A stretch of 64,000 nucleotides of DNA, taken from Brevundimonas viscosa. GTDB lineage: Bacteria; Pseudomonadota; Alphaproteobacteria; Caulobacterales; Caulobacteraceae. Positions 31,190 through 32,868 of the stretch are shown in pieces. The translations under genes and the position numbers were made by a program. Positions within the stretch are counted from its first letter, which is position 1. Every line of letters starts with the position of its first letter. The notes under the pieces were generated by a model. That model made no database searches. It saw only the letters and a program-made list of their open reading frames with translations, and had not been told where the DNA came from. The stretch spans positions 124,001 through 188,000 of the forward strand of contig NZ_FOZV01000001.1 of assembly GCF_900116065.1 (NCBI RefSeq), read 5' to 3'.

Positions 31190-31753
31190 TCAGCCGGTCG
31201 CCAGAACCCACACCCCCGTGGCGGCGAAACCGAGCGCGGCGGCGACGCGGATCCAGCGCAGCGGCAGGCGGCGCGCGGCCGCCTCGCCGAGGAAGACGGC
31301 GGGGCCGTTGACCAGCATCATGCCCAGGGTCGAGCCGGCTACGACGGCGACGACGGACTGGAACTGGGCGGCGAGCATGGCCGTGGCGACCTGGGTCTTG
31401 TCGCCCATCTCGATGACGAAGAAGGCGGCGGCGGTGGTCCAGAACACGCCGGAGAAGGTCTTCTCGGTGGTGTCGGGGCGCTCGTCGAAGCGGTCGGGGA
31501 TGAGGGCCCAGGCCGCGAAGCCGAGGAAGGCGAAGCCGACCACCCAGCGCACCCAGGGACCGTGCATCCAGTGCGAGAGCACGGCGCCGGCGGCGGCGGC
31601 GAACAGGTGATTGCCCAGGGTCGCGGCGAGGATGCCGAGCAGGATCGGCAGCGGCCGGCGCCAGGCGGCGGCCAGCACGATGGCCAGCAACATGGTCTTG
31701 TCCCCGATCTCCGCGATGGAGACGAGGCCGGTCGAGATCAGGAAGGCGTCCAA
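31190..31753 (-). CDS. TMEM165/GDT1 (UPF0016) family manganese/calcium exporter
   Basis: A 187-residue inner-membrane cation exporter. It has two inverted copies of the hallmark motif, SIAEIGDKTMLLAIVLA (first helix) and FVIEMGDKTQVATAMLA (fourth helix), that together form the cation site, and six hydrophobic helices in all. Bacterial members export Mn2+. The start is a weak TTG (MDAFLISTGL) with only GAAGAAG before it, fitting control at the translation step. A manganese-riboswitch-like leader lies 80-190 bases upstream, beginning in the end of the PAP2 gene. So Mn2+ probably induces it. Confidence 0.93.
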   Translation of the reverse strand: MDAFLISTGLVSIAEIGDKTMLLAIVLAAAWRRPLPILLGILAATLGNHLFAAAAGAVLSHWMHGPWVRWVVGFAFLGFAAWALIPDRFDERPDTTEKTFSGVFWTTAAAFFVIEMGDKTQVATAMLAAQFQSVVAVVAGSTLGMMLVNGPAVFLGEAAARRLPLRWIRVAAALGFAATGVWVLATG

Positions 31754-31829
31754 GACTTCTTCGTGCGCGGGGGCCTCGGCGGACGGACCTGTGGCGTTCG
31801 CAGCCGGACCCCCGCGTGGAAGCGCCCTG

Positions 31830-31945
31830 CGAAGCCAGCGGTCTTGCCAGGACCCGAAGGTCCGATCGCGCCATTCCCTCCGGGCGAGGGAAAGTGTGTT
31901 GACGCGAACCCCGCTGACAGGCGCGGGCGGCTACTCCCCGATGAC
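31830..31945 (-). promoter_or_regulatory. yybP-ykoY type manganese riboswitch
   Basis: Minus-strand leader of the TMEM165 gene. It has the three class landmarks in order: GGGGAGTAG (31939-31931), CGTCAACA in the middle junction (about 31904-31897), and GGCAAGACC (31848-31840), with stems between them (for example TTTCCCTC/GAGGGAA and GGACC-TTCG-GGTCC). This class senses Mn2+ and is known upstream of Mn exporters including UPF0016 proteins. Its first landmark contains the TAG stop of the PAP2 gene, so sensor and upstream gene overlap. Expression platform details are not resolved. Confidence 0.8.
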
Positions 31946-32695
31946 GGCGGGGTCTGTAGCGGCGGGCGGGGCGTCGTGCAAGCCGCCGGCGTGGCGGGCC
32001 TGCCATCGCTGCGCCGCCCAGGCGACCAGCCACAGGGCCATGGCCCAGGCCGCGCCGGCGCACCAGCCGGCGACGACGTCCGAGGTCCAGTGGGCGCCGA
32101 GATAGATGCGGGTGAGGCCGACCAGGGCGGCGATCAGCATGGCCGCCCCAAGCGCGAAGGCCTTGAGCCGACGGCGCGGCAGGACGCGGATCAGCATCAC
32201 CCCGAGGCTGAGGTAGAAGACGGTCGCGAGCAGGGCGTGGCCGGAGGGGAAGCTGGCGTTCAGGGTCTCCACCGCCTGGTAGGCGGCGGGCGGACGCTCG
32301 CGTTCGAACAGGGCCTTCAGCCCCTCGCTGAGACCGACCCCGCCGGCCAGTCCGAGGGCGAGCAGCGCCGCCGACAGGCGCTTGCCCTGGATCAGCAGGA
32401 AGGCGAAGGCGATGAGGGCGAACAGGGCCAGGACGGAGATGCCGCCGAGCGAGGTCAGGTCGGCGGCGGCCTCGTGCAGCCACCACGGGCCGCGCGGCTC
32501 GCCGGGGACCGGCTGCAGCCACAGCAGCACCGCCTCGTCGATGGCGCGGCCGTCCGCCTCGGTCATGTCGTCGGCGATCTCGATGAAGGTCATCACGCCC
32601 AGCGCAATGATCGTGAGGGCGGCGAGGGCGGCGATTTCGGCGCGCGCCAGACGCAGGGTCCGGCGCAGGAGATCGAGGGCGGCGGCGCGGTTCAT
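31931..32695 (-). CDS. PAP2 family membrane phosphatase
   Basis: A 254-residue membrane phosphatase with the acid-phosphatase motif set: KALFERERPPAAY (C1 KX6RP), FPSGHAL (C2 PSGH) and SRIY-like TRIYLGAHWTSDVVAGW (C3 SRX5HX3D, here with Thr for Ser). Six helices are predicted. Likely substrates are undecaprenyl pyrophosphate or phosphatidic acid/PGP. The start at 32695 (MNRAAALDLLRR) is preferred; a GTG at 32731 is possible. The stop codon TAG is the end of the GGGGAGTAG riboswitch motif. Confidence 0.88.
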   Translation of the reverse strand: MNRAAALDLLRRTLRLARAEIAALAALTIIALGVMTFIEIADDMTEADGRAIDEAVLLWLQPVPGEPRGPWWLHEAAADLTSLGGISVLALFALIAFAFLLIQGKRLSAALLALGLAGGVGLSEGLKALFERERPPAAYQAVETLNASFPSGHALLATVFYLSLGVMLIRVLPRRRLKAFALGAAMLIAALVGLTRIYLGAHWTSDVVAGWCAGAAWAMALWLVAWAAQRWQARHAGGLHDAPPAATDPAVIGE

Positions 32696-32868
32696 GGCGA
32701 GGCAAACGGTCCCGCTTGTGGGACGTTCCACTCACGCGTTCGTGATGAATAATTCCGGGCCGGCGTCATGCCCTCGTCGTGGGCCGTCCACAGGCTCATC
32801 CCCCGCCTTGATCGCGATTCGCCCAGAAAGTGATCGTCAAGCCCGTTGACGGTTGGTTAGCCATCTGC

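Follow-up and report, generated by a model that had tools for sequence, protein, structure and literature searches.

The manganese riboswitch ahead of a GDT1-family exporter gene in Brevundimonas viscosa probably has a sigma-70-type promoter of its own, and this promoter and the 5′ end of the aptamer also serve as the final codons of the upstream PAP2 gene. RNA is predicted to start at position 31945 on the minus strand, and switching would consist of a choice between helix P1.1 and a competing downstream hairpin. All positions refer to the window, the whole 64,000-nucleotide stretch of DNA that was analysed.

We searched the 64 kb with cmscan and Rfam 15. The window's sole riboswitch was a match to RF00080 (yybP-ykoY) at 31951-31849 on the minus strand, scoring 65.2 bits (gathering score 45) with E=8e-15 in 64 kb. 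The same RNA family was matched nowhere else in the 3.0 Mb genome; among 299 Caulobacteraceae genomes, 236 carry it. The class motifs GGGGAGUAG, CGUCAAC and GGCAAGACC occur in order at 31939-31931, 31904-31897 and 31848-31840. In the DNA, these landmarks are GGGGAGTAG (31931..31939, minus strand), on the L1 side and known also from the Rfam match and the ORF list; CGTCAACA (31897..31904, minus strand), on the L3 side and likewise within the Rfam match; and GGCAAGACC (31840..31848, minus strand), read from the sequence, which forms the 3′ strand of P1.2/L1 and the beginning of P1.1. Because the 3′ strand of P1.1 falls outside the Rfam match, the RNA element with its full P1.1 helix is better taken as 31945-31834 on the minus strand, as the match and the P1.1 pairing together indicate. 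The riboswitch precedes the manganese homeostasis gene GDT1 (PF01169), as class membership requires; in relatives the gene that follows it is GDT1, Mntp (PF02659) or Na_Ca_ex (PF01699). The original prediction had named a yybP-ykoY riboswitch with ordered motifs before a GDT1 exporter, and both the PF01169 match and an Infernal search of the kind that it had proposed bear this out. Judged by match and motifs, the locus is a genuine and ordinary, if compactly arranged, member of the Mn2+ riboswitch class, and would be expected to respond to Mn2+. It shares with other members, such as Lactococcus lactis yybP, the landmark order, the four-way-junction pairing found by the Rfam model, the manganese-exporter target and a P1.1 helix with a competing downstream hairpin. 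It differs in that its promoter and the 5′ end of its aptamer sit within the last codons of the upstream gene.

That upstream gene encodes a PAP2-superfamily phosphatase (PF01569, E=1e-21) and extends over 31931..32695 on the minus strand from an ATG at 32695; a GTG at 32731 is also possible and gives an ORF of 266 codons (32731-31931). The minus-strand junction reads GTCATC GGG GAG TAG, and the TAG at 31933-31931, inside GGGGAGTAG, is the PAP2 stop codon, so that the stop lies within the first conserved motif, as had been predicted. The final residues of the protein, TDPAVIGE, come from the stretch that runs from the promoter into the aptamer. Downstream, the GDT1/TMEM165-family exporter gene (PF01169, 1.2e-38) occupies 31190..31753 on the minus strand in the ORF list; among named sequences, its closest GDT1 match is from a Brevundimonas metagenome-assembled genome. 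Its TTG start at 31753, also part of the original prediction, aligns with a TTG in most Brevundimonas relatives and with an ATG in Caulobacter. Because the matching codon in relatives is TTG or ATG, the TTG start is plausible. A VanZ-like gene (PF04892; 31151-30786, minus strand) begins 38 nt past the exporter stop and may be on the exporter mRNA.

To locate conserved sequence outside the RNA, we aligned 75 GDT1-linked loci of the family on GGGGAGTA. Two spots separated by 17 nt stood out: cTTGc lies about 42 nt ahead of the motif, and cTAaa about 19 nt ahead of it. These sigma-70-like boxes keep a fixed distance from the aptamer irrespective of the upstream gene (columns -42/-41 and -19/-18 before GGGG), and the same two boxes were present in 35 loci with other targets. 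In the window they correspond to a predicted -35 box, TTGCAC (31976..31981, minus strand), assigned from the conserved cTTGc 17 nt before the -10 box, and a predicted -10 box, TACAGA (31953..31958, minus strand), assigned from the alignment and a weight matrix; both lie within PAP2 codons. At the -10 box, relatives carry TAAAG or a similar sequence, and in some of them it provides the PAP2 stop. The matrix was trained on 39 distinct PAP2-free sequence windows from other genera. Applied to the held-out B. viscosa sequence, it ranked TTGCAC 31981-31976/TACAGA 31958-31953 at the top of the window; none of the 839 other positions tested scored as high. Across the 32 PAP2-linked loci, the same matrix placed the expected site first in only 12 and among the best few in nearly all. 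In the clade of loci L027, L033 and L034 the score failed at the expected place, and by eye both boxes seem shifted by 2-3 nt. In many of 46 motif-bearing named GDT1 loci, beta- and gammaproteobacteria included, GTCATT likewise follows a -10-like box at a distance of about 7 nt. A scan with the strict E. coli sigma-70 consensus found no promoter, because the -10 box is TACAGA.

From the promoter geometry, the transcription start is predicted at the G of GTCAT (31945, minus strand), 7 nt past the -10 box. Exporter transcription, from its own sigma-70-type promoter, would thus most likely begin with the aptamer's first base, giving a main exporter mRNA that has the aptamer at its 5′ end and carries no translated PAP2. 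No start codon lies between 31945 and the TAG, so no ribosome would cross the 5′ strand of an RNA begun there. Such a start, with GTCAYY forming part of P1.1, would also explain the conservation of those letters in the Rfam model. A study of Caulobacter transcript maps (PMC4117421) reports 349 operons that have an alternative start site, and four 5′ UTRs in which conserved riboswitches are apparently encoded; internal promoters of that kind, located in the 3′ end of the preceding coding sequence, resemble the arrangement predicted here. A literature search that covered few subscription papers found no paper on a Caulobacter manganese riboswitch and none describing a riboswitch that overlaps the stop codon of the gene before it.

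We then compared the PAP2-exporter junction across relatives, as the original prediction had suggested. Of 50 Brevundimonas genomes with a GDT1 riboswitch, 26 had PAP2 upstream and 24 had no PAP2. PAP2 stops at the aptamer TAG in 18 of the 26 (tail VIGE), within the -10 box, 18-21 nt before GGGG, in six, and 67-79 nt before GGGG in two. All four PAP2-linked Caulobacter loci use the aptamer TAG (tail VTGE), and in a third genus PAP2 stops 50 nt earlier in two loci. Taken together, the 32 PAP2-linked genomes end the gene at the aptamer TAG (22), in the -10 box (6) or farther upstream (4). The overlap therefore recurs in two genera and the PAP2 stop varies, and the riboswitch is kept: it is intact in the Brevundimonas relatives with an earlier PAP2 stop and in the 24 without PAP2. 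Because close relatives end PAP2 earlier or lack it and yet keep the riboswitch, the overlap is, by this comparison, dispensable for the riboswitch. A PAP2 tree from which the tail was left out requires at least three changes of the overlap state; the stop position drifts, and the aptamer and promoter stay put. This pattern fits a PAP2 gene that runs into the adjacent promoter and aptamer and uses the earliest in-frame stop. The stop would simply be the first one met: in this genome the invariant TAG of the aptamer, in some relatives a -10-box stop. Selection for the overlap itself, for instance through a need of the protein for its PAP2 tail DPxV[IT]GE, is very improbable: the tails are much alike in Brevundimonas and Caulobacter, but VIGE and VTGE are wholly dictated by the aptamer's conserved GTCAYYGGGGAG, which is kept also in loci without PAP2, and other PAP2 homologues end ahead of GTCAYYGGGGAG.

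Other genes reading in frame over the aptamer were also sought in the remaining loci, and most long open +6 frames there proved to be shadows of other frames, without coding-like third-position GC. In one alphaproteobacterial metagenome-assembled genome (L133:1504-2331), a coding-like ORF of 275 codons ends at the aptamer TAG and may represent a third origin of the overlap; this ORF had no Pfam or NCBIfam match.

The original prediction was right about the riboswitch and its class, about the target gene and about the overlap with the stop codon, but its proposal that PAP2 translation competes with manganese sensing is unsupported as the main mode, given the conserved promoter before the aptamer. 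Competition requires the aptamer to be carried mainly on PAP2-containing mRNA, and the promoter predicts that most aptamer RNA starts at about 31945. We consider it unlikely that the aptamer sits mainly on a PAP2-exporter mRNA on which ribosomes ending at the TAG open P1.1/L1, setting PAP2 translation against Mn sensing. The stop codon does lie within L1, 22 of the 32 PAP2-linked genomes share the arrangement across two genera, and transcripts could read through, since a scan of 31600-32800 found no terminator separating PAP2 from the exporter. Against this stand the conserved promoter predicted to start RNA at the aptamer, the relatives that keep the same riboswitch with a PAP2 stop at least 24 nt farther upstream or with no PAP2, and the brief time for which a ribosome occupies a stop codon. 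Competition could act solely on RNA that reads through from the PAP2 promoter. There is a small chance that on such mRNA PAP2-terminating ribosomes at the L1 TAG hold P1.1 open, making exporter output depend on both Mn2+ and PAP2 translation; if true, this coupling would give a metal riboswitch a second input of an unusual kind. The arrangement has in common with upstream-ORF or leader-peptide control, in which a ribosome alters downstream RNA folding, a stop codon within a regulatory RNA fold. The frame here, in contrast, is a full enzyme gene, probably on a different, longer transcript.

An intercistronic riboswitch, in which a single PAP2-exporter transcript has no working internal promoter and the aptamer sets the exporter only, free of ribosome interference, also seems quite improbable. 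PAP2 and the exporter are close and on the same strand, and the strict promoter scan was negative; however, the promoter-like boxes keep their distance from the aptamer despite differing upstream genes, which PAP2 coding constraint cannot explain. We prefer a riboswitch transcribed from its own promoter.

The pairing suggests how the switch probably operates. The conserved GTCAYYGG start pairs with CC....GGC after AAGA/GAGA to form P1.1; in the window, 7 of the 8 positions of the 5′ strand GTCATCGG (31938..31945, minus strand) can pair with 31841-31834. The putative switching strand X, GACCGCTGGC (31834..31843, minus strand), can pair either with this aptamer 5′ strand or with strand Y, GCCACAGGTC (31786..31795, minus strand), according to pairing and covariation. 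The X/Y pairing is joined to an inner helix, TTCGCAG 31833-31827/CTGCGAA 31803-31797 (minus strand), in one long hairpin. The hairpin has 16 predicted pairs, of which 6 show compensated changes on both sides in a set of 25 relatives; most of these fall in the inner helix and fewer in the nearly invariant X/Y part. With Mn2+ bound, GTCATCGG would pair with CCGCTGGC in P1.1 and the exporter would be expressed; without Mn2+, the same 3′ strand would pair downstream with GCCACAGGTC in the long hairpin and exporter expression would be low. In L. lactis, P1.1 is the switch helix, and without Mn2+ its 3′ segment joins a terminator hairpin (PMC11087558). The topology is the same here, with the 3′ segment of P1.1 shared with the competing hairpin.

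Unlike the L. lactis type, the locus has no U-run intrinsic terminator: the scan of 31600-32800 gave 0 terminator-like sites, and no U-run follows the competing hairpin in the window. The output may instead be translation or, possibly Rho-dependent, transcription termination. Forced folds of the two states in 89 sequences (pseudoknot-free folding) gave no consistent change in exposure of the exporter start (mean 0.40 vs 0.41), and X/Y duplex energies gave no signal (own -16.2 vs swapped -15.9 kcal/mol). With own and foreign duplexes alike and start exposure unchanged, the output step is unsupported. Masking of the exporter start codon by GCAAGACC (GUCUUGG in the window) was rejected, as the complementarity is not conserved in relatives. 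Single-sequence folding alone indicated a second possible hairpin just ahead of the exporter start (31766..31816, minus strand), formed by CGCGGGGG (31816-31809) and CCCCCGCG (31773-31766).

The riboswitch also occurs before other genes. In 21 Brevundimonas genomes examined (L036, L017 and L051 among the loci), it was found at a place other than before GDT1. Where checked, these copies precede Mntp (PF02659), and their 5′ start is different, reading CCTGTTGGGGAGTAGCTTCC or GCCGTTGGGGAGTAGC. Within Brevundimonas, one kind of switch thus seems to be used for more than one exporter family. At locus L074, in another genus of the family, it precedes a sodium/calcium-exchanger-family gene (PF01699), a possible further Mn exporter, and L015, L022, L075, L079 and L095 are like L074 by sequence.

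Overall, the overlap is probably tidy gene packing, and a new control mechanism is unlikely. A stop codon inside a riboswitch should not be taken as coupling before asking where transcription starts. At this locus, a regulatory element and its predicted promoter supply the stop codon of the preceding gene, an arrangement kept in two genera.
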